Assembly (NCBI GenBank): GCA_020543525.1
Contig: JAHYIO010000008.1
Span: forward strand, 1,072,348 to 1,136,347
Direction: 5' to 3'
DNA length: 64,000 nt
DNA from: Coriolopsis trogii
Taxonomy: Eukaryota > Basidiomycota > Agaricomycetes > Polyporales > Polyporaceae
The notes below the pieces were generated by a model. That model saw only the letters and a list, made by a program, of their open reading frames with translations, had not been told where the DNA came from and did no database searches. A program made the position numbers and the translations under genes. This document shows positions 27,752-62,600 of this stretch, piece by piece (within the stretch, counting starts at the first letter, position 1; each line of letters opens with the position of its first letter).

Positions 27752-27809
27752 CTAGAAGATGTTAGTATCGTGCCCTGTCCGGTGGTCGTCGCCTGAACAT
27801 ACTTCGCGA

Positions 27810-33198: not shown

Positions 33199-33409
33199 TC
33201 CTTCCTCCTCGTGATTGATCCTATAGACTGGAATCTGGTAAATTAGACTTTGCGGGGGTGGCTGTGTTGATCGCGCGAGGAGTATCCGATCTGCTAGCGA
33301 CTATTAGCGCCCTTTACTGTCAGTCACGAATACTATACGTACGCGTATTAGCTACAAAGGGGCACTGGCAATTGGGGGAGGTGATAGGAGTGATATGCGA
33401 CATACCATT

Positions 33410-33760
33410 CCATACACAGTATACTGGTGCTACCATATACCATATATGGATGCACAGATTGCACATCCTGCCCATGTTGCCCACCGCGAAAACGGGACTT
33501 TGCCCGTCGTGATAGTATCACGGCGGACAAAGGTTGGGGTGCAGGAATGAGGAATTACCTGGTCTTCCATATATGGAATGTACTGGTGCTACTACATACC
33601 ATATATGGACGGACAGGATATCATTTCGCCCCCCACGCAAACGCGACTTTGCCCGTCGTGTAACGGTGGGCCTCGGTTGGAGGGAAGGAATGGGAGGGAA
33701 ACGTTACCTAGCTTTCCATATATGTTTTGTGGTGCTATAACTTGCCGTATATGGACAGAC
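33410..33760. repeat. Three tandem ~150-bp units with CC(A/T)6GG palindromes
   Basis: Units begin near 33410, 33567 and 33716 (spacing 157 and 149 bp). Each has two boxes about 30 bp apart flanking a TGGTGCTA core: 33410-33419 (degenerate) and 33440-33449; 33567-33576 and 33599-33608; 33716-33725 and 33747-33756. Three boxes are the exact palindrome CCATATATGG. Units 1 and 2 also share ACTTTGCCCGTCGTG. CCATATATGG fits the CArG consensus bound by SRF-type MADS proteins. Confidence 0.75.
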
Positions 33761-42175: not shown

Positions 42176-42768
42176 GACTGCGCGAGAAAGGTTGAGTGAG
42201 GAGGTGTTGTGGTGTGGAGGCTCGTAGGAGTTTTGGTGTTGAGCTTTCGGCAGCAACTACTCAGGCTTTATGGTCCTAGAGCAGACAACGGCAGAGTATT
42301 TTCCACGCCTCTCAGTCCTCGAGTCGCTCCCCATGCTCGATTATGAACAAAGGAGTAGGAGGGACAGACTAATCGAGGCCGACATCGGAGCAGTACAAAG
42401 CTGCCTGAACAGAGAAGTCGTGCGGCACAGGCACAATGCAGGATTCAGGTGAATGGTATCGAGGTGGTGAAGGGACATTGACGGGTTGCGAAGTGAAGGG
42501 AGGTGCGTCGTTCATGACTTTGGGGGCAGGCGACCACGATGCATCCGATAGATGGGCGCCAGTGGTCGCAGCGCCAATTTCGAATTTGGGCCCGCCATGG
42601 TGATGGGCGCCACACGGGTGTCCGGGAGCGAATGTATCTCAACCCAGAGGAGGCAGCTACGCGACGACAAGAATACATTGCAAGAAACGGACGGTACACG
42701 CTGGTCTACGATATGTTCAGAGAAGAAGTCCTGCCCATATGTTGGCCTCCAGAAACCCTCTCCCAGTA

Positions 42769-44155
42769 TCATGCTGGGGCTAGCAAAAGGCCGGTCTCAG
42801 CGATGAAACGTTCAGCAGTCTCGATGATTGGCCCCGACGCCTTGCAGCGCAACGTCAACCAACATGTCGTTGTGGTGAGTTGTGTCAACGCTCACCTCAA
42901 TGATGACATGGCTAAGCTTCGTCAGCGCTTCGTATTCTGCGAAGGCCACGTACATCGAGTCGAGCGAAATTTCCTCGTGGTTGGCACCGGCTTGACAAAC
43001 GCAAATGGCGCTCGGAGTCCCAAGCGCGTATTCGAGCAAGGCCTAGAGTAATCATAAAGATGAGTCGAGGTTGTCAAGAAGACCTCTGATGTGTCCTACC
43101 CTCATCAAGCCCAACGCATTGTCATGGTCAGCCTGTTGGGCTTCGATGAGCCGGAGAGCAGAATCGAGTTGCGCTGCCGCGGCTTCGCAATCTTCCACCC
43201 GCACGCGCTGATCTGGGGAGGCAAACCAGCTTGTCGCAAGGTTGTCGCCAGATGCGAGGGCCTCGTCGACGAGGGTGACGCGTTCTTCAGAGTGTCGCCG
43301 AAGACGTTCAACGACAGGAGCGATTTGACGCTCAAAATTCTGCGCAGGAATGCGTCGATCGCGGATCAAACGCAAGCACTTCTTCAGGTCCTCCTTTGCA
43401 ACGATGTCAGTGGAGGCTGCTGTTGAGCATCAAAGAGTCTCACCTCATCCGCCAGGATGTAGAAGCATTTTTTGTACTGACTGAACCCCTCCCTGATCCT
43501 GTTGACGTCATTCAACAGCTTGTCCTTGACACGTCCAAGCTCAGGCTTGTGCTCGCGGAGGAAGATGACATCCGGAATCGTTAGGGCATTGCTCATGATA
43601 AGCCTAGCCTCCATGTCGCAGAACTAGGGAATGGTGAGTGCTAACAGCGAGTACAAGGCAGGACTCTAGGCGTACTTGATCATATAGGGTTTGGACCTTG
43701 TTAACGTTCTTCACAGCCCGAACGATGAGGGAGAGCAGCAAGCCGGTGGCACAACGCGAAGCAACTCCGGGAGGCTGTATCTTTCCGCCGGGGCCACTAC
43801 TATCTTCTGCATGCCCCGCGCCTCCCGGACGGCCATAGAACATTCGTAAGTCGTGCGAAAACAGGCGCAGCTTCGAACGCAGCTCATCGACGTGGGCATG
43901 GTTGTGGCCAGCGAGTCGGGCTGCGAGGATGGACGACCACATCTCCATGTCTTCTGGGAGGTTAAACGTCTCACGAAGCCTACATGGAGACAGGTTGTCA
44001 TTGCCAGTTGCGTTACTCAGGACATGCGGGTAACGACCAAGCGGATCTCGAACTTACGCTGTAATCGTCGCCTCAACATTCTCGGCCGTGGCACGAAGGG
44101 CGTCTTCTTTGGCCATGATGCGGTCCATCGCCTCTTCCGGGGTGAGATAGGACAT
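42769..44155 (-). CDS. CC-L: helical coiled-coil-type protein, left module
   Basis: Exons (5' to 3') 44058-44155, 43676-43979, 43444-43623, 43100-43393, 42896-43042, 42769-42840; 364 residues. The sequence is almost wholly charged helix, for example DALRATAENVEATITALRET, HVDELRSKLRLFSHDLRMF and VVERLRRHSEERVTLVDEAL. It is a paralog of CC-R at 57816-59279. Exon 1 is 98 bp, the exon ending ILADE is 180 bp and the next 294 bp in both. Aligned blocks include LRETFNLPEDMEMW with LREEYTLKTDVLSW, and HEEISLDSMYVAF with GEELTLDRMEQAY. CC-R has one extra intron. No known domain recognised. It lies 342 bp downstream of TM-L on the same strand. Confidence 0.75.
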
Positions 44156-44497
44156 GGCAGTGGGGTGAACTTGATGAAAAGAAGGAAAAGGATGAGCAGG
44201 AGGGTAAATTCGGTCGTTCAGCTACGTTAGGATGGTACTAGAAAGGAGGCAAGACGAGGCGTCAAGCCGCTTGCCAATGATATAGGAATGTGCCACTTGC
44301 CGGACCCTTCTCGACCGTGACACTTGCCACGAGGCCCCTAGAGAGTCCTCCCTGCAATCAACATCTAGATATAGCTCGACATCCGCAAAGATGTATCATG
44401 TATCAATCGGTAAGAATGCGCTTCGAGGCCTGCTATCCCATTGTCTCACCGGGCCCGAAGGGTGATTTATCATTATAAACATCGACAAAACTGTAGA

Positions 44498-45448
44498 CTA
44501 CTCGATGCAATGTACAAGGATAGCATGAAAGTCAACAAATGTCAGACAGAACCATATGAGGATTATCGCGAGGACCATGAAGGCAAGAAATACGAGGGCC
44601 GCCGCGATGTGATGACAAGCGTTCACGAAGTAGTCACCCGCGTGAAACATGAAGGCATCGAAGTCGTTCACATCCGCAAGCTCTGAATTATAGCCGAGTA
44701 GTCCGTCGGCGAGGGCTAGGACACTCTGCAATGAGAGCGCGGGAGAGGGAATAGGAGCGGCCTGTGGTATGAGTGATAGTGAGTTGAGGGAGCCGCAATG
44801 GAGGTAATCCCCATGCCCTACCTGCTCATTGAGGCCACCAACGAAGACGACGAAGCACTGTGGGTTCTCCAAGCATTCGCGTTCAATGTACCCTGACCGA
44901 AGCGTCCATACATCAGATGGTGACACATCAATATGAGAACATTGGCTCACACGCAAGGGCCTTCATGTAAAGGGCACGCAAAACTTTAGCACTGACGACA
45001 ATCTCGCCAGACTCCGGTCGACGGCGGTCATCCTGCGGGAGTGTGGGTCAGCATAGCGAGACCGTGATAGTGGGCCCACGTACCAATGCGAGAGAAACCT
45101 GAAGCCCTAGCACTCGCACCACATATGATGCGGTTGTGGTGACGTGGATACGTGAAGTGGAATCCAAACGCGGGCCATCAATCTGAGGGTAGCCATTGAC
45201 ACCAGTAGAGCGCGCAACGTAGCTTTCCTTCTGCGAGCATGGTGAGCTTGAAGCCATGGTAGAAAGAGGGTAGTGAAAGAAAGACTTACCGCCGACATGA
45301 GCGCAATATCTGGACGGTCAGAACCAGTAGAGGATGAGCCAAGCCCAGTCGAGACGATCGCCTCGTCTTGAACGTCTTCTCCTGCGGATACGACTTTCGG
45401 AGTGTTGTGCATACTGTCAGAATGATTCGAGGGCGACATGTCAGCCAT
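44498..45448 (-). CDS. TM-L: single-pass membrane protein, left module
   Basis: Exons 45290-45448, 45084-45230, 44951-45032, 44822-44892, 44498-44761 give 240 residues. The first 28 residues (MADMSPSNHSDSMHNTPKVV onward) are encoded inside the left inverted-repeat arm and are identical to TM-R; after VQD the two proteins diverge. Exon 2 is 147 bp and exon 4 is 71 bp in both genes, with identical phases. A tryptophan codon is split by intron 3 in both (ALAW-YIEREC versus AVAW-YLKKRG). One membrane segment, AALVFLAFMVLAIILIWF, lies near residues 205-228 with a short tail after it. There is no obvious signal peptide, so tail-anchoring is possible. Family unknown. An upstream in-frame ATG exists at 45598, but I take 45448. 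Confidence 0.75.
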
Positions 45449-46670
45449 GGTATGATACAGGAGGCCTAGGAAAGAGAGAGTGTTGTGTGATGTGAGTAGT
45501 TTTCTGTCGGTCGCGCACGCGAGGAATGGGCGGGAACGGGGAAGACGGTCTACGGAAAAGGGTTCACACAGCACACGCAGCGAGTCAACGAGTGGCACAT
45601 CCCCAATCGGCGGGAGATCTCATAGGAGAACACGCGTACGGTGCGTCTTTTGCCCCCGAGTGGCACATCCCCCCGATTGACATGCATACTCAGCACGACA
45701 TCAACTTCGAAGCCGCACCATGCCTAGATCATGCGGAAACGTTTGCGGACTCGCGCAGTATAGCAACGCCTGAGGTCTAGTGAGGACTCATTCGTACATG
45801 CACGATTGCGCTGTCGGCTGGTTGTTGGCCTCAAAATCGAAGTCAGGAAAGTCTGGCATTCAGCCTTGAAACGAACTGAACGGTCGGTGAGTTGTGATGG
45901 TCATGAACGCGGCGTGTGGGAACAAAGGAGACAATATTTGGACAAATCTAGGTGCAAGGCTATGGGATGGCCGCCTCGCGGCGCCGCTGCTATCACTGAC
46001 TGTCCGGATGACGCTCCGCCCTCCACCGGCGGCGTAATACACGGTCCATGTGCTAGTCCTAGTATGTCCTATGACGACCAGAAAGTTGGGAGGGGACTTA
46101 CTGGGAGCATAGCGTGTCGCCAGACGTGAAGCCTCCGGCGCGCGCATACGTGCGCAACTAGTGTGGCCACTCCATGGACAGTAGACGGACAGATAGAATG
46201 ATCTCTAGGTCTAGCCAGCCTAAGATTCCAGCGCAGACTGCAAGGTGACACGAATAGAGGCTGATTAGAGGAGCTCTAACAGAGGCTGGCGGCAAGCACC
46301 AGAGACATGCCCGTCGCAATCGACGTGGTGTTTCCGTCGCAATCAACGTGGTGTTTCCTAATTTGTGTGGCGAGGACGTCTGTCCTATCACGTGACCCGT
46401 AAGCTAGCCTCCCTGACCTTAACCCCGAGCTCAATGTCTCTCGTCCATCGACACGCTCCTCCTCTCTCAATACCACAATCCCTCCTCTTCTTTGTTACTC
46501 TCTGAAGATCGCATGGAGTCTACCTAGCACGCGGCGTCTCGGACGCAGTGATAACAATGCGCGATCCCTGACTTCCCTCCCCCTACGCCTGCCCATCGTC
46601 GTTCCGTCTCGTCCCCTCCTGTACGCGTACTGCGACTTGTCTCTGTCCTGCTCCCCCCGCCATTATGCCT
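45363..46670. repeat. Left arm of 1.3-kb inverted repeat (divergent promoter)
   Basis: Reverse-complement match to 55202-56508. I noticed about six differences: three single-base indels (a C run near 45669, an A near 45842, a C near 46287) and three substitutions (near 45482, 45797, 46631). That is roughly 99.5% identity. The arm starts within codon 29 of TM-L, covers the whole 1.2-kb divergent intergenic region and ends two codons into S-L. It carries a CACGTG box near 46387. A 105-codon frame in the right arm is broken by an indel here, so the arm itself is not coding in its middle. Confidence 0.93.
46310..46357. repeat. 23-bp tandem direct repeat in the divergent promoter
   Basis: Two adjacent copies of GTCGCAATCRACGTGGTGTT plus TCC, differing at one position. 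Present in the other arm too (around 55515-55562). A 16-bp direct repeat, CGAGTGGCACATCCCC, also occurs twice about 66 bp apart near 45588 and 45655. Both are candidate regulator-binding sites. Confidence 0.6.
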
Positions 46671-47535
46671 CCCCAGACTCTTCCTCGTGTCCAGGAGATT
46701 CTCAGTGACCTTGTCAGGCAGGGTCAATCCTCAATGACATACACTATCCTGATCACGAAAGGTGCGTCAAGCCTTCTTTGTCGACTATCGCGTCTCATTC
46801 GAGGTTTAGTTCGCGCCAGAAGACTGCGCAGTACCGAGTTTGCCTACTCCCGCTTTCGCCGGGACCTGCGTGATTCGGTTTTGACTCTGGTGTGGGGATG
46901 TCCCTGGCGTGTTACCGCCTCCTACTTACAATTGTGTAGCTGCAGGCTGAGTATATCACCCTCGATGGCTCGCAAGTGCCGTCGGTTTTGTCTCTGACTC
47001 CAGCTGGCAAGGCTTTGTGCGTACATCTCAAGGCCCTTTTTCTCCTATCATGCTGACTGGCATGCAGCTTTGCAACGCTGGCCGTCCCTCAATGTCACCG
47101 AACGAGACGCACCCGCGAGTCCTCCCCTACACCGTCGCCGAAGTCCCGGGTGAGTGGGCTATTTTTCTTTCTTTCTTCACTTCTTACGTGTGCATTTCAG
47201 GCTCTCGAGGAGTACGAATTTCTCGCCTCCATCTTGCTCTCCATCCGGGACACCGTCATGACATATAGGAAGAACCCCTCGATCATTCCTGTTGACTCGC
47301 TCCCTCACGAAGTACGATTTTCTGTGTCTGAACAAAGTCATGCGATGCGATACCCCACCCCCCATAGATTTCTCAATGTGTTGATGAAGCAGACGACATG
47401 ATTACTGAGGCACGTCTTGTACTTCTCTTTAGCGATGTTAGATTTTAACCCTTAGCCGTGTCTCTCACACAGAATTTCACTCTGACGGGTCGCCTGAACG
47501 ACCTGAACTTCGAGTTGGACAATTTGGTGGCCTAG
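46665..47535 (+). CDS. S-L: small helical protein, left module
   Basis: Exons 46665-46889, 46946-47016, 47068-47149, 47201-47311, 47368-47409, 47473-47535; 197 residues. The start MPPQTLPRVQEILSDLVRQG lies at the inner edge of the left inverted-repeat arm. It is a paralog of S-R: the second exon here (71 bp) and the fifth (42 bp) have exact counterparts there, phases agree, and blocks such as SVLSLTPAGKAF align with SAIRLTDAGMKF. Intron 5 has a GC donor (GAG|GCACGT) with a normal CAG acceptor; choosing a nearby GT donor would change the last 20 residues. A further intron within the first exon is possible because S-R is split there. No known domain. Confidence 0.6.
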
Positions 47536-47656
47536 ACTTACAGCCTTGACGTAGACGACTAATTTTTTCTGGTTCCGTTTTGGTTCGATAATCGATTTGA
47601 TGGCTTTCCGCATACTTCGGAGTGCAGCGCTTCCCAGAGCTGGGCACGATGGTCAT

Positions 47657-49745
47657 ATGGCGCTGGAAGGAGAACGCCGTCCCATTAGTGACGTAGACCG
47701 TTCTAGATCGAAGCGCGCCCGGAGCCGCGTGTTTGGCAATGTGCCACTCGTAGCCCGCCTGACAGTCGCTTGAGCGGCAAAGACTTCCTTCCCCGCGACT
47801 TTGTCCCTACTTTGAACTCCATAATGACTGGCTCTCACTATTCTGCGTACATCCAGGTCGAACAGCTCATGAACGGTCACAGCGACACCATTAACTCCTT
47901 ATCGTTCTCCCCGGGAGGTACACATCTGGCGAGTGGAGGCGACGACTTCGCGATGTGCATCTGGAGCGTCGTGAAAGGGAAGTTATTGTACAGACTGCTG
48001 TTCGACGAAGCTGTCGACTGCGTCCTTTGGCATCCTGTGCATGCAGAGACAGTCATATTCGGCTTATCGAATGGGTATTTGGGCCAAGTGTATGGGTTCT
48101 CATTGGTATGCTTTGCTCTCAAAGGAAACCTCGCGTCACGATCAAGCCTCTCTTTTGCAGCATAGCAATCGTCGGCATGATATACATCTCGGAGCAAGAA
48201 GTACCGTCTACTGTCTGGACTACGATGTGAATACATCATGTCTAGCCATAGGGATGGGTGAGGAAGTACATGTGACGCGAGAAGTTGCACCGAGTTGAGT
48301 CTGATATGGGGGATCGAGAGTCGTAATTGCACCACTAACGTCGTCCTTGCCAGATTCCTACGATGGCGATGTAGTACTCTATGGAGTACCCGAGCCGGAG
48401 GCTACTAACAGTCTCAGGGATTCTCGCCTTCGCGCGGTGTCTGTCAAGTTCATTAAGAAGGGCACGAATTTGGTAGTGTCATATGTGGGCCATGGCATCA
48501 TGTACCTTTTTCACGAGCTCTACATAGTCGCCAATGCTAACTCACTGGCTCAGATGTTGGGATACGTCTACCCGCGACAAGCTTTGGCATATCCAGATGC
48601 CATCCCAAACTCCCAATATGTTGAGTATCTGCTGGTGTCAAATATCGCGGTCGGAGCGCGCGCTGATATCTGTGCTCAGCGGCGGTGCAGCTATTAGCCC
48701 GTATCAGCGGCTTATCGCCGTATACAATGTCGTTGACGGACTAGACCTCTACGTAACAGGACGGAGGCAGCGACCGCGTCAAAAGTTCGCATTCCCCCAG
48801 CGTCCACAGTCCTCCCACCATCTACAGGTCGAATTCATCCATAACGGTCACGCTGTGTTCTGTGGTGCTACCAATGGTAGAGTTATGCTGTGGGAGGTTG
48901 GTACAGGAGATGCTCTCCAGGAGCTGTCTCATAACGGTGCGTCTTCGACGTGCTGACTGCAATATAAGGATGCCAATACTGTTGTCAGATGACATCATTC
49001 AGGCTGTGAGCGTAAGTGGCTACATGATACAATACCTATCGCTACTTGATATACGCCCAAATGCAGGCGATCACGCGTGCGAAATACTCTTACATTGCTA
49101 CTGGATCAGCTGGTAAAGGGCAAGCGACATACATCAAGATCTGGCGAGCGAAGATTGGTGTGTCACTTCGGAAGAGCTCTATAGTTCATTTTGTCTGACG
49201 TTCATGTGAAGCTAACGAGCAGGGAGGCCCAGAGGTCCCCGATGCTGTAGCAGGCCTTGTGCGAGCGGTCACAGTGAGTGCAATTGTAACCCCTCGCGGC
49301 AGACGTACTGACAGTGGCTATCCTCGCTGACACAGGGCGGACGGGACTTCACGTCGCAAAGTATATCTCAAGCAGTTAAGGACGTCATCATCGTCTTCGT
49401 ATTGTGCGCTTTGGTCATTTGGGCTTATCGAGGAGTTCCGTGGAAAGACGTCTGGCATGTATGCCTCACGATTGGCTTGGTCTCGGTGAGTCTGCAGATA
49501 CTTGTCATGCTAGCGTGCTTGTTGATGCAAGGTCATAGATGGAGTGCCTGGCCGAAGCCGTGCACACGACCGTTCGCGTTACTGCAGAGAGCTGGGCGAT
49601 CACTACCGAGTACACAATGACCCAGGGAGCGGCTCTGGCAGCCAAGGTCTCATTCGCTTTGCGACGAGCTCTACTTGCATTCCTCTTCCCGGACGGCGCA
49701 GGAGGCGTGGCTGACGTTCCGCAGCCGATGAACAGGGAGTTTTGA
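47657..49745 (+). CDS. WD40-repeat protein with C-terminal membrane segment
   Basis: The N terminus starts MALEGERRPISDVDRSRSKR at 47657. After VPLVAR the frame must shift by one base near 47758 to continue as SGKDFLPRDFVPTLNSIM; I see no intron there. Then come WD40-type repeats: NGHSDTINSLSFSPGGTHLA with SGGDDFAMCIW, a second block with VYCLDYDVNTSCLAIGMGEE, and HNGHAVFCGATNGRVMLWEV. A C-terminal exon encodes DVIIVFVLCALVIWAYRGVP, one likely membrane helix, and the last exon ends VADVPQPMNREF. WD40 propellers bind other proteins; the partner is unknown. It follows S-L on the same strand and lies inside the possibly invertible interval. The single frame break leaves it unclear whether it is active. 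Confidence 0.6.
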
Positions 49746-51672
49746 TCATGGTAGCCATGTCCAATGCGCCTTGTATGTAGTTTGGAGAGATTCGCAGTAT
49801 GCAGCCTCCACGCACCGCAATGAAGCCGAATGGACTTGCTTCCTGATGCACCTCTACTTAGCCCGTCTGCGGTGGACAGTCCGGATTTTTGCGGAGGCAG
49901 GCACTATTGTGGTTGTTGTACTTAACGCCATGGATAGTCAAACAGCAGGAAAGACGTGCGAAGCCTGATCTCCGAATGAATCCGAGAGCGCACGACAGAG
50001 AGGCAATTCTACATCCTCACGGAACGCCCTTCCCTCTCGACCGCTCACTGCACCACGAGAATTGGATTGTCTCCCGTAGGCAGACCTTACGGACGTTGTT
50101 GACGGGCGGGTTGATGGTCCAGTAAGAGAATGTACCTGTATGCGACCCTACCCCTTGTACTGAGGCTAGAAAGCGCCCGTTGACCATGCCGCGGGACTTT
50201 TGATCGCACACCTCACTTTTTGTCCGCCTGCCCCGACTGTTGTAGGATGCTGAGGCACTCAGCCAGTTTTCCTACCATCGCATTGTGTTGAGTGGATTGA
50301 TTAGGGACTGTCTTAAGTACTGAGAGAGCGCTGCGATGGCATAGGTGACGGACAACACCGGAGCGGGATGATTCCTGATATGGAATGATACGGGCGAGTA
50401 TGACTTCTCGGCGCTCGCACGTCGCGATTGCCTTTTATAGTGCACCATAGCCAACCAATGCTTATTTCAGTCTCTCCTGACCTATATGACATGCTCTCTC
50501 AAATCATGGGTGGTATAAGAACGAGGCGAAAGATACATCCACAGACTGCAGGACTTGAGGTACTATATATGTAGTGAGGCCACCAGGACACGCCAGCCTG
50601 CGAACAAGAAGCAACGTCGCGCCCAAACTCGTACGGACCCAAGATCACATTGCTGCCTCCGTCATCGAGGGCTATGAACAGCGTCAACGGTCAGACTGCT
50701 AGAGAGTACTCACATTCGAAGCTCAGAAAGGCCACATTGTCTCGCTGATACACCCTCACTAAAGTGCAGGGTCGGGGATCTGGGACGAGTTGAGGGCGCT
50801 CTGAACATCATTGCAATTGGAGAGCTGCTGCAGCCATTCTTCGGCATCCTCTGCGCCGTCTCGGCGTCTGTGCCGGTGCCCTCGATGGAGGATGGATGAG
50901 ATGGCCGGATTTGTGTTGAGTCGCCAAGGTAGATAAACAGAACATGTCGCGCTACAAAGGCATGATTGTCCACATTATACATGCAGACGAGGTCGCTCAA
51001 TTCTTGCTGCACGACACGACACGGAGGGCGCTTCACAAGTCGAGTTCAGACTCAGCAGCACAGCCACAATGTGCGGGTGCTGCGCTCGCGTCGCGTCGAC
51101 CCGCCCGCTCAACTGCACTGTGTCCATTCCTCTTTCCCAGTACTGAGACCGTGATCGACAATTTGGCATGCCGCGCCATCTCTCCATCAGGTATACGTGC
51201 GCAGATGGCGAAGCAGCCAGTGTAGCGGAGTCTCTCCTCACGCGCACCAGACTCATCTCTTGTGGGAAACCCTTCCTCAGTCCTCACCGAGGGATCTGCC
51301 CTGTTAGCACGAGCAAAGCTGTCTCAATACACTTCGGGAGCTCTACGAGCAGAGATTAGAGGCGACACACGACATTTGTGAAGTCGAGGTAACAAATAGC
51401 TCGTCCACGCACTCTCCCGCTCGGCTGTGCCATAGCTCTGCCACATCACGACCCACACGGTTGGGGACTTGTTGACTATCTGCTCAGTGACTCGAGCTCG
51501 CGCAGGTATACACGAGTAAGTCCATACGTGTCAACTCTAATCACATATGTGCCCATTGTTTGACTCAATTCTTTGCGCTTCCCAGTGTCGACTCCATACC
51601 GACAGTGAGCCATTGTTCGACTCATTCGCCAACAACTGACACCCAGCATTGTTACGTGTGCTGTGCAGAGAC
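49746..51672. other. Gene-free centre of the palindromic locus
   Basis: Short frames only. A minus-strand stretch around 50770-51000 (for example ELSDLVCMYNVDNHAFVAR) looks exon-like but has no start or splice partners I can support. Confidence 0.3.
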
Positions 51673-52281
51673 ATGCCCCCCGCCGGGGGCTTCAACCTGC
51701 CGCTCCGCGGACCGAGTGGCCTTGTTATTCTCGGCGGTGTGACGGCGGTCTGCGCCTATGGCTTCTATCGGGTTGGAAAAGGGAATCTTGGGAAGAGGTA
51801 CGTGGAAGTTTGTCGTCGTTTGGATGGACGGGTAGAGGTCAGGCGGCCGTTAAACGGGGGGAGTTGAGGGCCCGCCCAACGGGGAACGTGGCCTTCTGTT
51901 GGATCCAACTGCGCGAACCGGTCCCTTATAAGTGACAAATCTGGCCCGAATGTTGCGCTGGCTTCGTAAAGAGCGTCGAGCTGATGCGACATTGCTTCGT
52001 AGGGAACTTCAGAGGGAGGAGGGAGAAGGTCTGGTCGCGCATTCACTTGGTCCCTCTCCTTCTCGCGGAGGGCGACCGTGAGGCGTATCGACGTCAGCAA
52101 GCTGCGCTCGCTCGCGAGAAGGCGATCACGCAGGATGTGCCGGGCTGGTGTTCTCGAATGGGGTGGAAATCACTCGCAGTATTCTCACTTGTTGTGGCCT
52201 ATAGAAGGAACAAATCCGAGAGGAGGAACGACGACAGGGACAGGAGTAGCAGAGGCGCCAGGCGGCAGCGTGATGCGATAG
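51673..52281 (+). pseudogene. GRIM-19/NDUFA13-like gene, probably damaged
   Basis: GRIM-19 is a small accessory subunit of mitochondrial complex I. The first exon (51673-51797) reads MPPAGGFNLPLRGPSGLVIL then GGVTAVCAYGFYRVGKGN, a clear match including its single membrane helix, but the 7 codons usually found between GGF and NLP (a basic, tyrosine-containing segment) are missing. Downstream, EKVWSRIHLVPLLLAEGDRE to AREKAITQDVPGW is well kept. The junction contains RELQRE directly after a TAG acceptor, then an extra GAGG-type repeat that shifts frame; using the CAG acceptor at 52012 instead restores frame but loses RELQ. The C terminus after VPGW is not the expected one. A real but altered gene is possible. 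Confidence 0.6.
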
Positions 52282-52719
52282 ACGCGCTCCCGATCCCGCG
52301 CTTCCATATCAGGAAATCCCCCGCCTTTCCGTTGTGCTTCGTCCAACGGGCGAAAGCCCGCATACTCGCACTCCGGCACCGCAAAAAGACAGCGACACGA
52401 TCTTCCTCTGGTATCACGGCCCCTACAGCGTTGATGAAGTGTTCAAGCCATCCACCTTCCGCCGCGGCGGCGTCCGCTCCCTTGCACCCCCCCTGACGCG
52501 GTGCAGACGTTCCCACAGACCCTAGTCCGCTCTGTGCGCACCTCTACCCATTGAACCAACCGCCAGACATCCAAGATTCAGGTCTACGTCGCGGGGGGCT
52601 TTTTCGGGATGTCGTAGGTGTTACAGGGGAGGGGAAGAAGCAAATATGATTGCGTCAACAATTGATGTTTTCTACGTAGGTACACATGCATGTTAGGCAC
52701 AGTGGTGCACGACTGTCAC
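52282..52719. other. Short unassigned interval
   Basis: A plus-strand frame with DTIFLWYHGPYSVDEVFKPS (around 52394-52455) looks exon-like but is not linked to a gene. Otherwise nothing. Confidence 0.3.
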
Positions 52720-53966
52720 CTATCTACCAGTGGGAATGGATGACGCATGCAACTTGCCAGCCTCGCGCACCTTCTTCTCCATCCGGCCCTTGTAGGTGCG
52801 AACGGTATCCTTCGTGACCCATGACGGTTCCCCGTTCTTGAGAAAATTCAGGACATATCCGCGAAGGTGCGGGTGAGGGTGCAGGAGCTCCACTGAAAGC
52901 CAAGTTGACGCAGCAGTGAACAACCAAGCTTGTTTCACACCTTGGCCGCTAGTGTGCACATAGAGGTCGCCTGCTTTTGCAAGGGACAACGTCGGGGGGA
53001 CATCAAGGAGCTGGTTCGCATTTGAAGCGAACCAGAACGTCTTCTCACCACGAGTCTTCTCACCGCGACTCCGCAAGGAGCGCCAGGCGTAGGTGATGTC
53101 CAAAGGACCACTAGCATGAGCGTCATGAGCACAGGATTCGAGCAGGAGGCGTGCACTACTCACATGGAGGTCTGAACAGTCTGACACAGGTCGTGAACAG
53201 ACTCGTCAAGGCCGCGATGCAGCTGACTACTTGAGCTCCGTCAGCTCATGATTCTTGAGCGAAAGAGATTCGGTACATACGGTCCTGATGAGGCATCTGG
53301 TGCTCCACTAGGCTTCACTGCACTCACATGAGCAGGCGGTGATAGGTTTGATGTTTGAGGCGCAGGAGCAGGTACCTGACCTGCTAGCCGTGCTTCCGAT
53401 ACAGGAGTCGATGACGGAGCTACGTCTGCAGAATCGCTTGTTGTCGTGGGTGCAGTTGGTAACGCCGAAGGCTGCGATGAGTTAGATGCCTGGCCAGAAC
53501 GACTGAGCATAGAACTAGGGACGGCAGCGGCAACGCTCGACACTCACAGTTGCCGTAGTAGAGACGACCACACCGCGTGTGGCCCTTGCACCAGGACCCT
53601 CCCCAGGAACAATGCCACTATCAGGGTATCACAATTACTGCCTGCATCAACTGCATCATAGAAATAGTACGAACCTCTGTATGATCTTCTGCTGCTGTCG
53701 AAGATGCCGGTGACGCAAGATCACGGATGTCGGCTCCAGGCGCACACCCTCGTCACTGGGTAGGAGAAGAGCGGGGAAGAAGGAGAACTTGACGTTGAAC
53801 GTCACCGGCTTCTCGGGTTCGTACATGTTGAGCTAGATGCGTATTGCGACAGTAGTTATGTAGTTCACGAGGAGGAAAGCAGGGTTGGAGTGATACTGAC
53901 GTTGAGGTGTTCCTTAAATACTGCGTACGGGCAGGCAGACTTCACATCAGAGAGCAGAGGAGCCAT
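52720..53966 (-). CDS. Hypothetical multi-exon protein between the repeat arms
   Basis: Starts MAPLLSDVKSACPYAVFKEH at 53966. Exon 1 is 53901-53966; exon 2 begins at 53832 with LNMYEPEKPVTFNVKFSFFP and continues through a charged region (ILRHRHLRQQQKIIQ). A serine/proline/alanine-rich exon (ASNSSQPSALPTAPTTTSDS onward) follows. The last exons encode KTFWFASNANQLLDVPPTLS, DLYVHTSGQGVKQAWLFTAA and end at 52720. Splice signals look normal. I do not recognise the family. It points away from S-R's promoter but lies downstream of S-R on the same strand. Confidence 0.5.
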
Positions 53967-54286
53967 GTCCAGAATGCACAATAAGCAAAGAGAGTGCGGA
54001 AAAGCAGGACATAGACAGTGGACAAGGGAGTAATGGGCTGGTTTGTTGTGATACAACGCGAGGGGGGAAATATCACGAAGGGTGGTGAAAAGGCTGAACG
54101 CTGCGCGCCGGCAGGCCGATGGGGTCGGGCGTCTATATATGCATACCCATCACTTTCCTTCACAACGGACGCTGAAGCTTGCATCGCGATGGCGAACCAA
54201 GTGAGGTGCGGTTGACCACGAGAGAGAAGATGTAGAGTCCACTCTTTCATGAACAACACGATGATACAGTGGTACATTACACGTAT

Positions 54287-55207
54287 TTAATTCAGGCGTG
54301 ACTGGCGGCGCAATCGCCGCTTACGTTCCTCCTCCATGTAAACCTCAAGCTGCAAAGTTGTATTCTGCCACTGATAGTCAGAGAGATACCAAGACGCCAT
54401 AGTCCAGAATACGCACGACGTTCGTCAGCTCTTCCAAATGTTCGAATGCCTTGGTGACCTATGAAAGTATCTAAGTATTCTCCCAGAATCAGAGTAGGGA
54501 GCCTCACAATGACGGGAAGATCGGCAATGTCTTGAGCATATGTGTTGTCAAAAGAGCGACGACGAAGATGTTCTTGGATGTTGCATAGGATGCGCCTGAA
54601 TGCCTGACAATGTCCCTCGATCTAGCACTATAAGTAGGACTTTCTGAGACGTAACATTTCGACAAGCTCATACCTGGGCAATAGTCATACGCGACAGCCG
54701 AGCATCACCTGGGGTGTACAGGGGGCGCTGGCCGAATTCACGATAGCTAACGAGACGAGGTCGGCACATAGTAATAAGAGACATGAGTACCCATGACACA
54801 TACAACTTCATGCCAGCGTCGGTTAAACGAATGGCAGATGAGGGAATGTCAACGCGGAGACGATGCGCAGAGCTCTGGACAAAGTGAGATGAGAATGGGT
54901 GGGATCGCGTGAAGAGAGGGAACGCACTTCGCGACGGAGAGCAGCGAGGACGCGGTCGTGATAGCGCGGACCGCATCTCAAACCCTCTCGCTCAATGTCC
55001 AGCTTAACTACGAGGTCCAATTGTAAGAAAGGATCGGGTAGCGGGCAGCGCACGAACCAAGCAAGGCAACTTGCTGTAGGGATGTGGAGTCTTTGTGTTC
55101 TTTGGCGAGAGCAGAAAGGGCGTGTTAAACACCTGTAGATGGATCTAAACAAAGCGCACAGAAGATGAATGAGTTGACATACGCGTGAAGTACGTCGGGG
55201 TAGGCAT
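54287..55207 (-). CDS. S-R: small helical protein, right module
   Basis: Exons (5' to 3') 55183-55207, 54928-55073, 54804-54874, 54674-54746, 54508-54615, 54417-54458, 54287-54370; 182 residues. The start MPTPTYFT lies at the inner edge of the right inverted-repeat arm; only the ATGCCT is shared with S-L. The 71-bp and 42-bp exons have exactly the sizes and phases of their S-L counterparts. The body is helical and basic at the end (VYMEEERKRRLRRQSRLN). Blocks RLRVDIPSSAIRLTDAG and FRRILCNIQEHL align with S-L. No known domain; function unknown. Confidence 0.6.
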
Positions 55208-56508
55208 AATGGCGGGGGGAGCAGGACAGAGACAAGTCGCGGTACGCGTACAGGAGGGGACGAGACGGAACGACGATGGGCAGGCGTAGGGGGAGGGAAG
55301 TCAGGGATCGCGCATTGTTATCACTGCGTCCGAGACGCCGCGTGCTAGGTAGACTCCATGCGATCTTCAGAGAGTAACAAAGAAGAGGAGGGATTGTGGT
55401 ATTGAGAGAGGAGGAGCGTGTCGATGGACGAGAGACATTGAGCTCGGGGTTAAGGTCAGGGAGGCTAGCTTACGGGTCACGTGATAGGACAGACGTCCTC
55501 GCCACACAAATTAGGAAACACCACGTTGATTGCGACGGAAACACCACGTCGATTGCGACGGGCATGTCTCTGGTGCTTGCCGCAGCCTCTGTTAGAGCTC
55601 CTCTAATCAGCCTCTATTCGTGTCACCTTGCAGTCTGCGCTGGAATCTTAGGCTGGCTAGACCTAGAGATCATTCTATCTGTCCGTCTACTGTCCATGGA
55701 GTGGCCACACTAGTTGCGCACGTATGCGCGCGCCGGAGGCTTCACGTCTGGCGACACGCTATGCTCCCAGTAAGTCCCCTCCCAACTTTCTGGTCGTCAT
55801 AGGACATACTAGGACTAGCACATGGACCGTGTATTACGCCGCCGGTGGAGGGCGGAGCGTCATCCGGACAGTCAGTGATAGCAGCGGCGCCGCGAGGCGG
55901 CCATCCCATAGCCTTGCACCTAGATTTGTCCAAATATTGTCTCCTTTGTTCCCACACGCCGCGTTCATGACCATCACAACTCACCGACCGTTCAGTTCGT
56001 TTCAAGGCTGAATGCCAGACTTTCCTGACTTTCGATTTTGAGGCCAACAACCAGCCGACAGCGCAATCGTGCATATACGAATGAGTCCTCACTAGACCTC
56101 AGGCGTTGCTATACTGCGCGAGTCCGCAAACGTTTCCGCATGATCTAGGCATGGTGCGGCTTCGAAGTTGATGTCGTGCTGAGTATGCATGTCAATCGGG
56201 GGATGTGCCACTCGGGGGCAAAAGACGCACCGTACGCGTGTTCTCCTATGAGATCTCCCGCCGATTGGGGATGTGCCACTCGTTGACTCGCTGCGTGTGC
56301 TGTGTGAACCCTTTTCCGTAGACCGTCTTCCCCGTTCCCGCCCATTCCTCGCGTGCGCGACCGACAGAAAACTACTCACATCACACAACGCTCTCTCTTT
56401 CCTAGGCCTCCTGTATCATACCATGGCTGACATGTCGCCCTCGAATCATTCTGACAGTATGCACAACACTCCGAAAGTCGTATCCGCAGGAGAAGACGTT
56501 CAAGACGA
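55202..56508. repeat. Right arm of 1.3-kb inverted repeat (divergent promoter)
   Basis: Inverted copy of 45363-46670; 1307 versus 1308 bp. It begins just inside S-R's second codon, covers the divergent intergenic region and ends in codon 29 of TM-R. Homology stops abruptly at both edges. The 8.5 kb between the arms is unrelated left to right except for the S paralogs. Confidence 0.93.
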
Positions 56509-57498
56509 CGTGCATGACTACCCTCTCGCTCCCGACTCCTCCGGGTTACCCATTGCCCGCCCACCTACTTATCCGTCCAAGCCTATTGTCACACTGAGCT
56601 CTGCCGCACGGCTCACGTCGACGGTTAGCTTCCCACCGACTCGTTACCCATCGTTATTCTCCATTCTCATCTTCTACGTGCAGGTCACATACAGCGACCT
56701 CTCCGGCGGATACGATGCAGTCACCCGTGAGGCAGCGACGAGGCCCATCTCGTGTTCGGACAAATTCATCTATGTCCCTGCGGGCACGGTTCACTTACAA
56801 GACGACCCTGAAAGCATTGCTGCTCTCGTAGTAAATACGTCTCCCTTTCTTCTCACTACTGTCCTCACCCTTATGATAGGTGTCATCGGCTTCTGGAGGC
56901 GAGTCTACATTGACTCCTAAGCTTATCATTAGCCACCGCAAGCTCAGATATCTTTTCCGGGACGCGGTAGCTTGTGCGTACCATGAAACTGCCATCGCTG
57001 TTCCTAATCTGATATACCATAGGGTATCTCAAGAAACGTGGACTCGACGTCAGTGCCGTTGACTTGGCTGTACACGTCGACATCCTGGACGAGGTGAGTC
57101 CTGTGAAAGCGACTGCATGTAGTCTTGCTAATTGCACCTGCCAGGCTACTCTCCTCAGCAACCTCCCAGACGGTCTGATTGAGTTCGACGTATTTGCTGA
57201 TGGTCAGCCTTTTGCTGCACCTATTCCCAAGCCTGGTTCCGCGACCGCTGCAATCATTATGGCTTCAAGATGGGTCGCCGCTCTCGTTGCGGTCGTCCTA
57301 GTTGGGTATGCACTCTTAGGATTGATTACGCACGCTCTCAGCGTGTCTAACAATGTCAATATGGGCACATGCGACCTCCTTTCGAGACTGGTCTCAATGG
57401 CAGAGATCTTGTCGGCGCTGTCTGCTGTTCGGTGTTGGAGGAGGTCATTCCGGGCCTCTTGGGCGCCGGGCGCCGGCTTCAGGCTGCACGCGACGTAG
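56423..57498 (+). CDS. TM-R: single-pass membrane protein, right module
   Basis: Exons 56423-56623, 56684-56830, 56880-56973, 57023-57093, 57145-57498; 288 residues. Residues 1-28 equal those of TM-L and come from the repeat arm; then a proline-rich segment (LAPDSSGLPIARPPTYPSKP) replaces the left version. Exons 2 (147 bp) and 4 (71 bp) have the same lengths and phases as in TM-L. Exon 4 reads YLKKRGLDVSAVDLAVHVDI. A single membrane helix, WVAALVAVVLVGYALLGLI, spans about residues 214-233. A longer C-terminal tail of about 55 residues follows, unlike the short tail of TM-L. The intron 3 donor GTGCGT was chosen because it preserves the split tryptophan codon seen in TM-L. No known family. Confidence 0.75.
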
Positions 57499-57815
57499 TA
57501 GAGTTGTAAATGGTGGCTAACATCTAGTCTACGACCGTCCACAATGACAACACATTCTATGACAGTCGTTGAGATGGGTGCCTCAATCCATCATTCCTGC
57601 GCATATCCCACCGTATGACACTACAGTCTTCCTGAGTACCAAGACGTCGCGTGTTCGTTGCTTTCTTTCCGCGTGGCATCTATCCAAGTCGCACAAAGGG
57701 CAAGTCAGTGGCTACCTCGCTCGCGACTCTTTCACAACCACATAGCACAACTATCCGCCCTGCTGTCCCGCTAGGTTCTCACTCCCAGTCTACCGCTCTC
57801 ATCCAGCTTGAATAC

Positions 57816-59279
57816 ATGGAGCGCGTTCGCACTGATTTCGCTATCGCTCAAATTCGTAGGCGAGAGAAGGAGGTGCAAAAAGCCTGTCTGGGCGCCGATG
57901 AGTTAATGTTGAAGTGAGTCTGTAGAAATTTACCTCTTGTACGTACAATTGATGCGTGCAGGTTGCGAGAAGAATACACCTTGAAGACCGACGTTTTGTC
58001 GTGGCGGTTTGATATTGCCTCTCAATGCGAGCTTGTGCACAAACACCGTCGCAAATCTCTTCGCCAAGATCTTCGTGCTCTCCAAGACAAACTGTACAAC
58101 ATCTATTCCCCCCATGAGACACACATGTTCTCTAACGTGGAAACGAAGGCGGACGCATCCATCACCGCCCTCATCGTTCACAGTAAGCTCTCCGATGCCC
58201 TGCATAGGACCTCATCTTGACCTGTCGCAGATGGTCAGCAGAATGCGCGTCCTATAGGTTCTCCGTCCAATGGAACGAATCTGGAGGAACCCTCTGGCGG
58301 TCGCTCTCGTAAGACGACGGACCTAGTGGACAATGCCAAGAACGCCCTCATGTCTGTGTCTGACTTGTGTGCTGATCTTGAGGACCTGTCGCATAAGGTG
58401 AGTACCCGAGTCTCCAACCCACTCCGACAGCGCCTTACTGTGTTGCCTCACAGATAGATATGAGGTACCAGGCGCGTGTTGGTGAAGGTCCTCTGTCAGT
58501 CAACGATCGTGTTCTTCATCACCGCGTGCTGCCTAGGTTCAAGAAGGATCTGGACAAGGTTCTTGAGTATCGACGTCTTCTGCAGGAGATCATGTTCAAC
58601 TGGGAACACTACTTCGCTGCCCTAGCATCGAAGGTAAGCCCCGGCCCGTATGCGGTTGCTTATCGTGCTAAACACCTCCCAGGACGGCATGGCTCAAGTT
58701 CTGGAAGAAATCGCGAAGCAAAAGATCCCGAAGAGCGTGTTCATTGGCATGGCCGAGCCTCTTGCTGAACGTCTGGCGCAGCTGTCCAAGAATTGCAACT
58801 CTATCATTCTGAGGGCGACTCAGCTTACCTTCGGTCAAGAGGCTAATCTGCGTGCGACGTACCCGGAGCAAGTTCCCAGGAACGCACTTATTCGGGAGTT
58901 AAACAAGTATGAGGCGCTTATCACTGAGGCCCGCGAGCAGCACGACGAAGTGTCCTTCCTAAAGCATCAATTCGAGGTTTGGTACCTAGCATTCGATATT
59001 TGAGAATGTCGGCTGACCAAGACGACCACAGGTGCTCTCCATGAACGCGAAGTTGCCGGCTGTAATTATCGGACCCGGGGGAGAAGAATTGACCCTGGAT
59101 CGCATGGAACAGGCGTACTACGAGTTTCGGGGCTTGTTTTGCGTGCTGGATGGGACGTTCAAGGTGCGTGGTTACACATATCCGCTGCTCCATCCCATCC
59201 CGAGCTTAAGATGGGGACGAAGCTGGCCAAGCGCCTCAAGACGCAGATGCGGGAGACACTTGCTTCCCTTGCCCAGTGA
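57816..59279 (+). CDS. CC-R: helical coiled-coil-type protein, right module
   Basis: Exons 57816-57913, 57962-58182, 58231-58397, 58454-58633, 58683-58976, 59032-59163, 59211-59279; 386 residues, nearly all charged helix (RRREKEVQKACLGADELMLK; HKHRRKSLRQDLRALQDKLY; AERLAQLSKNCNSIILRATQ). Paralog of CC-L with the same 98-, 180- and 294-bp exons and matching phases, and one extra intron in the second coding segment. A glycine/serine-rich linker (GSPSNGTNLEEPSGGRSRK) sits in the middle. The C-terminal block PGGEELTLDRMEQAYYEFRG is the best-conserved part. It lies 317 bp downstream of TM-R on the same strand, mirroring the left side. No enzymatic motif seen. Confidence 0.75.
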
Positions 59280-59639
59280 GAGTGATTAGAGTGGCGTAGC
59301 ATTAGCGGAATGTGGTGTAAGCATAGAGAATCGAGGGCAGTTCGAGGTTCTGTGTGTACTGTCCGGACCCGTCGCACGAGAATGTGCAGCTTGTGCATTA
59401 TAATTTATATAATGAAGCGCTCGAGCGTCGGCATCCGCCCCGCCTTGCCGCGTAGTCGATCCGAGTGTGCCACCACTTACCCAGCGCGCTCGCTCGCGGA
59501 AATACTTGCCGCATTCACCATTTGTGTAGGCTATCGAGTGTCTGCAAACTCGAACCTCTCCTCCTCCTGCTGTGTTCGGACGAACTCGCGGCAGACAGTC
59601 TCGTTCCTAGCCTTGAGTGCCACAGGCGAGGCCTCACGC
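59280..59639. other. Spacer between module and transposase remnant
   Basis: No gene seen; no obvious terminal inverted repeat of the neighbouring element could be identified here. Confidence 0.35.
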
Positions 59640-62600
59640 TTGTTTTGAGACGCCAGTCAATATGTCCTCTTCGGTCAGTCCAATCTTGAACAGCTCCTCA
59701 TGCTCGTCAGTTGACGATTGCTGCCTCGCGACTATCCTAGAGGAGTACCCAAATGCAACTGTTTGGCGTCGTAAGCGGTGGGCGAAACTCAACGAGGCCG
59801 CAATCGCCGCCTCATCGCCCGATTCAGTCGCCGAACTTGAACAATCCTTGACACGTCTTTCGCTCGCCCCCGGAGCCACCGATATTTCATTCACTGAGTG
59901 TGCAGTCCCTATCGATAAAGTACCCCCCCGACCGCTTGCTCGCAATGCACCAGCCGCGACTACATCACACGAACCTCCGTGTTCAGAGGAACGCTGCGAA
60001 GCTCAACGCATCAATATCCCTGACGAAGCTTCGACTATCATCTCCCAACATGAAGATGTGGTGCATATTCAACTGGCATTCATACGAGCGATGATTGTCT
60101 TCACCACTTCCGGTCAATCGTTGCGCTTCGCTCAAGATCCTATCCCTGATCTGAGTTACCAACGATGGGATGTAGACTCTGGCTCAGCCTGCAATCACGG
60201 CAGATACGCCCTGTTGGCGCGCGATCATCACAACCGCTCATTCCTCGACTACCAAGAGTGGCTGGAAGAGTCACTGTACGTGCTCAAGTCTTTGACGCCG
60301 TCCGCCGAGTCAGACGTCGAGGCAGTTCGGACCAATCTGATCGTCCAGATTCGAGAAGAGCTCGAGCGTCTTGAGGATCTCAAGGAGATAGAGTGGGAGC
60401 AACAGCAATCGCTGGTCTTGATGGAGGGTACGCAAGGATCTCGAGCGATAGACACGAGTGAGTACTGTTCAGAAGTCGCGTGTAAATACAGATTGAGGCT
60501 CACTATCTAAACGAAGGTCGCCATTTTGAATCTCAGGCAATCACCTGGAACACAACGGTCGCGCCAGTGAACGCATTCTCCCTTGTTTCCGTCGCCGCCA
60601 ACCTAGTCCTTGGTTTGTCGCGCAAGGCTACCGCTGTGGTCATGGGCGGCTTGCGAAGTGCTATAGAATTAAGTCTCTTATATGCGCATGCCTCAGGTCC
60701 TCTGCTTCCACAGGATCACCACCTTCTTCGCCAGCTCGCGCGCGATCCTCGGACTATTCTGGGCAAGTTTGACCTTGACCCTTGTGTCACCGTCTACAAC
60801 TGCTGTACCAAATGCTTTGCAATATACGAGATCACGTCCAACCCACCAGACTGTTGCACACATCGCCCGACACCTGAAAGTCAACCATGTGGAGCGGAGC
60901 TTTGGCGGAAGAGAACCATACGCGGACGCATAATCACGTTCCCTGTTCGAAAATATCTCCATCAATCAATGAAGCACTGGCTCGGGCGTATGCTATCGCG
61001 GCACGATATCGAGACCTGGCTTCAGCTCCCACGTCATGGTCCAGCTCCCAAAGTCATGACGGATATCTTCGACGTGTTTTGCCCTTCGAGCCTTCCTTGG
61101 CCCCGACGGTCCTTCCCTTTCTCAAGGCACCTGATGACGAATTGCGCCTGATTTTTCAGTCTGTCTGCTGATGGCTTCAATCCTTTTTCACATGAAGGAG
61201 GCAAAACAGAGCGTCACAAGTACTGCGATTTACATGGTTGCATGAATCTCCCGCCCCACCTTCGTTATCTCACAGAGAACATGTATCTCGTCGTTGTTAT
61301 ACCTGGCCCCACGAAACCGTCGAAGGACCAGATCATCACGCACTCTCCCCCTCGTCGACGATTGCTAGAATTCTGGGCCCGGGTGTGTACTATATGCGCA
61401 CGGCGCTTTTCCGCCACGGTCGCCGCGCTCGAGCCGCTATGGTGCCACTCGTCGCAGATCTCTCGCAGTTTCGGCAAATCTCAGGCTTCGCGCAACATGG
61501 TCACAAGAAGGTTCTGTGTACTGTTTGCAACGTCTCTCTCACGATGACATAGAAACCACCCATTTCGCGAAGTTTACACCACGGGACGTCGACGAGCACC
61601 GCAGGACAGCTGCCGAATGAAGGACGCACAAACGGGTCGAAGAACGTGTGGCGATCACAAACGCTACTGGGATTCGCTACTCCGAGTTATTGCGGTTGGA
61701 GTATTGGGATCCTATCCTATACCTCGTTGTTGATACCATGCACAACCTCTAACCTCGGCCTCTCCAGCCCATATCAGAACATACTGGGGTATTAGCACTT
61801 CGACTAGCGACGGGACGCCTCTGCTAGGGAGCAACGCCGCCCCCTCCGCGGCCTTCTGATGCGAAGATGCTGAAGGCGAGCATCGTTTACGATACTCGAC
61901 GTATGCAGGTCTCGCGAGGACGTCAAGAAGGTTTTGTATCATATTGCTTGGATCCGATCTTCGTCATGCGGGAACGAAGCGCCAGCTTGCGTGGAATCTC
62001 GAGGAATGGGTAAGTGCTTAATCGATGGTATGGACCCCCAATCTGATTAAGTTTCTCGTAGAGAAAGCAGGAAGGACTACCACTGCCCCGACCCCCTTCA
62101 CGCCCATTATGTGAGTAATGTTGAGTATAGGTATGATGAACATGTCAGGCTCTAATGCGATAACCTTGCAATTGTGTCCAGTGTTTCCAATGCCTGATTA
62201 TGGTGACCAATTGACGGAGCAGATCAGTCAAGCAGAGCGATCTCTGCAAAAGGAAACAAGAGCACCACGATTCAACGACTCCTGAAGACACGTTGGCCGC
62301 CATGTGTCGGGTCCGAGGTCTGGATGCTAGTGGTACCAAAAGCGCGCTCGCGGATCGCCTGGTGCTTTGGGTGAGGGCCTCGACCTAGGCATTCTACATG
62401 TGACTAACGGCGCAAACAGCGGGATAACAACTCCATGATCGCCAGCGATACAGACGTTGGCACTGATACTCACACTGACTCAGTAGCGAGGCCGGAGGTG
62501 CCAAGTGAGGTGCGTGGGCTCGGTATCTGTGACTTCGAGCTCACTTGCTCATTTCGCCTTCAGATAGCTGACGTGGACGGAAAGATCAAGAAGGACAACA

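Follow-up and report, generated by a model that had tools for sequence, protein, structure and literature searches.

How can two gene sets whose proteins have drifted far apart share promoters that hardly differ? The question is raised by a locus of Coriolopsis trogii lying in a stretch of 64,000 nucleotides (assembly GCA_020543525.1, contig JAHYIO010000008.1, positions 1,072,348 to 1,136,347), hereafter the window, in which two copies each of genes termed S, TM, and CC face each other in mirror order. The explanation that we favor, with a probability of about 80%, is that the locus belongs to a giant transposon of the EnSpm/CACTA type, about 52 kb long (58.5 kb in a second copy on another contig), which carries mirrored gene sets and whose two promoter arms undergo conversion.

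Mirrored gene sets and their common promoter

The promoter repeat consists of two inverted arms separated by about 8.5 kb, each of which extends from TM codon 28-29 to S codon 2-3 and thereby contains the complete intergenic region and both start codons. Within a 1309-column core, 3 substitutions and three 1-nucleotide insertions or deletions (indels) separate the two arms of the window; outside either arm edge, the left and right sides can scarcely be aligned as DNA. When the whole genome (38.8 Mb in 39 contigs, called C1, C2, etc., with the window on C8) was searched at the DNA level, the repeat was located at four places, which form two mirror pairs, one in the window and one on C5, and which therefore do not reflect a one-off assembly error. 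The mirrored S-TM-CC sets with a common promoter of about 1.3 kb, reported in a preliminary description of this DNA, were thus confirmed (for coordinates, see Table 1).

Gene models were built by hand with GT-AG introns, the second side being modeled with the first in view. All six introns of S_L recur in S_R in order and phase, with one extra intron in front in S_R; the same holds for the introns of TM_L and TM_R (4/4), and CC_L and CC_R have their first intron in common (amino acid [aa] 32, phase 2). Because of these shared introns, the left and right sets are to be regarded as truly paralogous, and the relatedness claimed earlier for the two sides, which a finding of unrelated proteins would have contradicted, is borne out. 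The proteins themselves are strongly diverged. The identity is 20-24% for CC (BLASTP, 20%, E = 3e-6 without composition correction) and 23% for TM without its shared N-terminus (BLASTP, E = 2e-4); for S, an alignment gives 22% and the BLASTP match is insignificant (E = 1.1), and it is the introns together with this alignment that argue for the paralogy of S. A simple hydropathy scan showed one hydrophobic segment in TM_L and two in X_R, the latter belonging to a fourth mirrored pair, X, whose two members are 47% and 38% identical in two stretches. The mirror of three genes described earlier is accordingly real, and its extent was underestimated, as X lies beyond the span of 42769 to 59279 given for it; the right limit of this span equals the stop of CC_R, and the left one misses the stop of CC_L at 43052.

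A giant transposon at two genomic sites

The locus lies in a DNA transposon that is inserted at two unrelated genomic sites. From window position 23345 to the end of C8, the sequence is collinear with C5 at 98.7-100% identity, except for C5 inserts of about 0.5 and 6.5 kb, the larger of which (C5:811582-818083) is nested and has similar sequence at C1:3454-3458 kb. Beyond the borders, the C8 and C5 sites differ: in a genome search, 3.3 kb of neighboring sequence on C8 matched itself alone, and 4.9 kb on C5 matched itself and 19 listed short repeats of 70-99 nucleotides. C39 and C38 begin about 2.4-3 kb further along the C5 frame and track C5 to position 860426, so that the last 8 kb or so of the C8 copy probably reside on C39, after an assembly gap of about 2.4-3 kb. 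C38 duplicates the beginning of C39 (99.84% identity), so that some contigs of the assembly are redundant. Subtraction yields lengths of about 52 kb for the C8/C39 copy and 58.5 kb for the C5 copy with its 6.5-kb insert.

All four outer ends start with CACAAGGGGCATTTCCC, the C5 left end with one base change, and both copies have the termini CACAAGG...CCTTGTG at both ends if C39 is taken as the right end of the C8 copy. The insertion sites bear target duplications of 3 bp, namely, TCA/TCA on C5 and ATA to the left on C8 and to the right on C39. CACAAGG ends are also found in three short relatives of about 570-610 bp (C6:699.0 kb, C6:1036.2 kb, and C28:776.8 kb), and all three of those fetched have 3-bp duplications (TGC, AAC, and AGA). 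A 444-bp block near the element ends (window 23422-23865, C39:7517-7960, and C5:859907-860339) is flipped at one end in comparison with the other; its four versions are 99.5-100% identical if gaps (11 bases at the C5 right end) are disregarded. The left terminal region of the C8 copy is interrupted by an insertion of about 4.6 kb (about 24471-29084) related to C1:3225-3230 kb.

The Tnp2 family (PF02992) was recognized in the C5 copy (E = 4.5e-17; 62.4 bits versus a cut-off of 28.6), and in the C8 copy, where the gene is disrupted, the score was just under the cut-off; no other long copy of the transposase DNA region was found in the genome search. CAC..GTG ends and 3-bp duplications are given as marks of EnSpm in fungi in the accessible text of PMC12730594. 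With Tnp2, CAC..GTG termini, and 3-bp duplications all present, the sequence assigns the element to the EnSpm/CACTA type. Plavaka (PlavakaA/B) was rejected as an affiliation: its termini, according to the accessible descriptions, are TGT..ACA or CATCA..TGATG versus CACAAGG..CCTTGTG here, and the Plavaka profile scored 16.5 bits on the transposase, below the cut-off of 26.3.

Homogenization of the promoter arms

Two element copies with two arms each permit a direct comparison in which the terminal inverted repeats serve as an internal control. The copy-specific differences of the promoter core, i.e., those common to both arms of a copy, comprise 10 substitutions and one 23-nucleotide indel, and there is no arm-specific one. 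In three blocks of the widely separated terminal repeats, counted without gap columns and without the 444-bp outer block, 25 sites are arm specific, none is copy specific, and 13 fit neither class. Fisher's exact test on the informative sites gave a P value of 1.7e-9, a certainty that is overstated as sites within a tract are not independent. Since promoter sites are copy specific and terminal-repeat sites arm specific, the promoter arms were homogenized within the copies after these had parted, and the tested parts of the terminal repeats were not. Gene conversion is probably the molecular process behind it. The contrast between old coding divergence (proteins 20-24% identical) and young promoter identity, which had been noticed at the outset, is upheld by arms homogenized copy by copy; of the repeated conversion proposed to explain it, conversion agrees with the 11 copy-specific and 0 arm-specific differences, and its repetition within this genome is unproved. 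Selection for a common control of both sets, the other proposal made there, is conjectural, and the right-hand genes are decaying.

These observations can be combined into the following scenario. The element would carry a Tnp2 transposase and accessory genes, among which S, TM, CC, and X represent two old, diverged copies in mirror order, and S and TM of each side would diverge from one bidirectional promoter and thus probably be coexpressed. Because the arms are only 8.5 kb apart in inverted orientation, they could pair, and repair would copy one arm onto the other without crossover. The conversion tracts would end a few codons into S and about 28 codons into TM because the coding sequence beyond is too different to pair, which would amount to a heterology barrier. 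A crossover instead would flip the center and bring S together with the other TM/CC set, a flip that a shared promoter might tolerate.

Relatives in Polyporus arcularius and on other contigs

With a profile of TM_L and TM_R, one of the 7996 candidates listed and scored reached E <= 1, and once this protein had been added, a second one was found among 7997; further species may have such proteins beyond these candidates. Both stem from Polyporus arcularius HHB13444: K466DRAFT_605607 corresponds to the right-hand type (48% identity to TM_R over 161 aa), and the partial K466DRAFT_605393 corresponds to the left-hand one (39% identity to TM_L over 196 aa). The two are identical in 26/26 residues immediately before the point at which they diverge, and this stretch sits about where the arms end in C. 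trogii, with a sequence unlike that of the C. trogii TM proteins. The presence of both types and of shared 5' residues with a different sequence therefore suggests separate homogenization in the two lineages; most simply, the left and right types would predate the species split. The AlphaFold models of both P. arcularius proteins were unusable (mean pLDDT, the predicted local distance difference test score, of 38), and the protein search with CC yielded nothing at E <= 1 among 7997 candidates scored.

Within C. trogii, relatives of several element genes recur at C1:3408-3458 kb, namely, Tnp2 (32-49%, three stretches), X (31-34%), WD40 (two genes, 29-35%), Y (36-40%), and Z (31%), flanked by inverted arrays of 67-bp repeats (3408001-3412444 and 3451629-3453475). 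The region C1:3408001-3453475 is apparently a second giant element, the outer left end of which would lie beyond these limits. Since Tnp2, X, WD40, Y, and Z occur together again, several of them seem to belong to the element itself and not to have been picked up at random. For CC, tblastn (E = 0.007) and a profile scan (E = 0.44 and 0.83, neighboring frames in the right order) are only suggestive of a relative there. The scan was run against a reversed-sequence control, in which the best E values were 2.1 for CC, 2.3 for TM, and 0.6 for S; in the C1 region, neither S (E = 0.98) nor TM (one hit, E = 0.81) was convincingly found by it. The preliminary description had regarded relatives that never cluster elsewhere as a refutation of its reading. 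The outcome was mixed: clustering on C1 was found for X, WD40, Y, Z, and the transposase, weakly for CC, and unconvincingly for S and TM. No internal inverted repeat resembling the promoter arms was found on C1, where 380/380 inverted matches fall into the terminal arrays.

X relatives lie beside Tnp2 relatives with equal spacing both on C1 and at 1.90 Mb of C5 (C5:1898251-1902855), the latter pair close to the contig end, and a further X relative is located at C2:428560-429087. With TM_R as the query, a search of the own genome returned both the left and the right copies, from C5 as well as from C8, and one match on C36 (E = 0.09), and the search with CC_R found the right-hand copies only, missing CC_L too, so that remote relatives may escape it.

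State and possible function of the mirrored genes

All four left-hand genes (S, TM, CC, and X) have open frames in both copies, with a 6-base in-frame indel in CC_L between them. The right-hand set is damaged. In C8, S_R is broken by a stop at codon 11, a correction to the initial account, and it lost its ATG start in C5; TM_R shows a 1-nucleotide indel between the copies in exon 5 and lacks the acceptor AG of intron 2 in C5; the frame of CC_R is open in C8, and its C5 version carries an in-frame TGA (codon 202) and a 1-nucleotide indel in the last exon. X_R has an open frame in C5 and also in C39, there from residue 17 onward, and it is frameshifted in the redundant contig C38. Some of the 1-nucleotide indels might be sequencing errors. 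The pooled ratio of nonsynonymous to synonymous substitutions (dN/dS) between the copies is 0.50 on the left (18 changes; S, TM, and CC) and 0.47 on the right (20 changes, partial models), with no sign of diversifying selection in these 18 and 20 changes. Given the similar ratios, the decay of the right set looks recent. The left set is presumably the working one.

Pfam searches gave no match for S_L, S_R, TM_L, TM_R, and CC_L, four matches below the cut-off for CC_R (E = 0.03-0.15), and no domain above the cut-off for X. Among solved structures, the best hits of the S profile (E = 0.14) and the TM profile (E = 0.92) were taken as chance, and a short alignment of the S C-termini added nothing. 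The N-terminus of S (LTPAGKAFF/LTDAGMKFY) has a possible winged-helix look, which no tool supported. By our analysis, S, TM, CC, and X are most likely accessory genes of the element and possibly contribute to a membrane-associated complex.

Linkage to mating type was considered and rejected: in searches with PF02076 and PF05920, at least 18 listed matches to STE3 receptors are all on C4 and the one homeobox match is on C20, i.e., on other contigs than the locus. The STE3 cluster at C4:842-889 kb and the homeobox gene at C20:1964 kb are themselves probable mating-type loci.

Alternative explanations

Several points weigh against the proposed scenario. The C8 copy is truncated by the contig end, and C39 was assigned as its other end on the basis of its sequence and of the ATA present at both; a match of 3 bp is expected by chance in 1 of 64 cases per site. 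The correspondence of introns between the sides is not fully independent evidence, as the second side was modeled knowing the first. Private to one of the four arms are 6 substitutions and 3 indels of the promoter core (3 substitutions and 3 indels on C8 and 3 substitutions on C5), and in the terminal repeats, 13 sites belong to neither class and the nearly identical 444-bp block was left out. One long conversion per lineage could account for the copy-specific pattern. The evidence from P. arcularius consists of two proteins; S and TM were not convincingly recovered on C1; and the near-equal dN/dS values of left and right, based on few changes, are no proof that only the left set is used.

Could C5 and C8 simply be the two nuclear haplotypes of a dikaryon, with the locus as an ordinary chromosomal gene cluster? 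The divergence of about 1% between the copies and redundant contigs such as C38 and C39 would suit such a view, but the flanks described above are unrelated on both sides, the common terminal sequence comes with its own 3-bp duplications in each place, and a transposase lies inside. Haplotypes were dropped as the whole explanation on account of the unrelated flanks and the matching target duplications, and we regard them as very unlikely. An assembler that had duplicated one arm is scarcely credible: inverted arms of such similarity are notoriously prone to misassembly, but this layout was assembled twice in unrelated surroundings, and each arm pair has private differences. Purifying selection on the promoter in place of conversion is highly improbable as well. 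It is plausible that a bidirectional promoter shared by both sets serves to match their expression, and the arms do end near both start codons, but they differ between the copies by the 10 substitutions and the 23-nucleotide indel in step on both arms, and constraint is rejected because it cannot make two arms change in step. It is easier to envisage that the promoter was copied once, recently, from one gene set to the other and that nothing recurs, since one full-length conversion after the split of the copies, in one or both lineages, fits the pattern of sites; the same state with a different sequence in P. arcularius calls for at least one independent event there, and we consider a single copying unlikely.

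The function of the genes leaves room for a different proposal, namely, that S-TM-CC(-X) selfishly secures the survival of the element, by toxin-antidote action, nuclear killing, or incompatibility, or else serves in recognition. Rapidly evolving membrane and helical proteins on a mobile element would be in keeping with this, as would the maintenance of two diverged versions since before the split from P. arcularius. However, no protein has a Pfam match above the cut-off, S_R is broken in both copies, and at least one copy each of CC_R and TM_R is damaged, and we consider the proposal unlikely. The chromosomal version of it, a recognition, incompatibility, or toxin-antidote locus as initially speculated, is not supported, as the locus belongs to a transposon and is found on neither the contig of the STE3 genes nor that of the one homeobox gene detected. 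Returning to the transposon with converting arms, a tentative extension may be offered: an unrecognized giant EnSpm lineage in polypores might maintain membrane, helical, and WD40 genes of its own as a conserved set, with two deeply diverged types coexisting in one branch since before the P. arcularius split under one promoter through recurrent conversion, and the matched pair may help the element to spread or persist in mating or fusing mycelia.

Other genes and repeats

A second GRIM-19 gene on C34 matches more of the profile than the one in the center of the element, which looks captured because of this other copy. An open frame at window 30472-31251 (-) has a UBA-like match below the cut-off (E = 1.6e-4) and is perhaps a captured ubiquitin-ligase fragment. 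Tandem repeats within open frames of the element have units of 18 bp (window 32710-32916) and 69 bp (41672-41918), multiples of three. Outside the element, the open frames at window 6664-7716, 8972-9667, and 11155-11877 resemble each other by eye and gave no Pfam match at E <= 0.01, window 13576-14088 (+) matches the Gig2-like family PF07350 (E = 4.7e-9), and window 18271-19251 (-) matches the ELP1 beta-propeller PF23797 (E = 7.8e-7). Rfam gave no match in the window.

Table 1. Features of the element and its mirrored gene sets (window positions unless a contig is named)
Feature	Position	Strand	Remarks
C8 copy of the giant EnSpm-type element	23346..64000	+	left end CACAAGGGGCATTTCCC to contig end
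Left terminal inverted-repeat region	23346..29881	+	broken by insertion of ~4.6 kb
X_L, outer mirrored gene	36221..37323	-	2 exons (37323-36800, 36746-36221); hydrophobic N-terminus
Gene Y	39045..40154	-	open frames; C5 counterpart 36-40% identical to C1:3412990-3414197
CC_L	43052..44155	-	4 exons, 307 aa
TM_L	44498..45448	-	5 exons, 240 aa; one hydrophobic segment near C-terminus
Left promoter arm of inverted repeat	45363..46678	.	TM start to S start
S_L	46665..47535	+	7 exons, 186 aa
WD40 gene, center	47707..49745	+	ends approximate, by eye; relatives on C1
GRIM-19/NDUFA13 gene copy	51676..52170	+	ends approximate, by eye
Gene Z	52720..53205	-	PSWVTK motif; C5 counterpart 31% identical to C1:3424075-3425046
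S_R	54287..55207	-	8 exons; broken
Right promoter arm of inverted repeat	55194..56508	.	
TM_R	56423..57498	+	5 exons
CC_R	57816..59279	+	7 exons, 386 aa
Tnp2-type transposase gene region	59617..64000	+	disrupted in C8; long open frames C5:845935-849599
X_R	C5:852344-853441	+	partner of X_L

Comparison with known systems

Among the titles and abstract openings listed from the mainly open-access literature, no giant CACTA/EnSpm element with cargo and no giant basidiomycete element of this kind was found. The giant gene-carrying fungal transposons encountered there are mainly the Starships of Pezizomycotina, and a basidiomycete EnSpm-type element of 52-58 kb with a set of several genes of its own would widen this picture. 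CACAAGG ends, a Tnp2 gene, and X and WD40 neighbors may serve as search marks in other genomes. The mirrored promoter next to terminal repeats that were not homogenized amounts to a natural experiment of unusual clarity on the limits that distance and divergent flanks set to gene conversion.

With EnSpm/CACTA of the CMCT clade, as far as the accessible text describes it (Kojima 2025, PMC12730594), the element shares Tnp2 (PF02992), CAC..GTG ends, and 3-bp duplications; it differs in its size of about 52-58 kb, in at least eight other gene types (S, TM, CC, X, Y, Z, WD40, and GRIM-19), four of which occur in mirrored pairs, and in its long terminal inverted repeats. Fungal DNA transposons carrying a TET/JBP gene, mentioned in the same source, come near to it. 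Enlarged EnSpm families of 16-20 kb with 4-5 open reading frames are reported in the accessible part of a study on the red alga Chondrus crispus (PMC6431247); they likewise carry extra genes, whereas the present element is about three times longer, fungal, and equipped with mirrored paralogous sets and a homogenized promoter. Starships, which in the descriptions at hand are based on a tyrosine recombinase and come from Pezizomycotina, resemble it as giant fungal elements with accessory genes, but here the transposase is of the Tnp2 type and the host is a relative of Polyporus. For the promoter, the closest parallel is the silkmoth chorion locus, for which the accessible text of PMC4639761 describes gene pairs that diverge from a conserved common promoter and undergo gene conversion. 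The chorion genes are a host multigene family with many pairs, whereas in C. trogii two inverted sets whose coding sequences can hardly be recognized as related share their promoter within a transposon.

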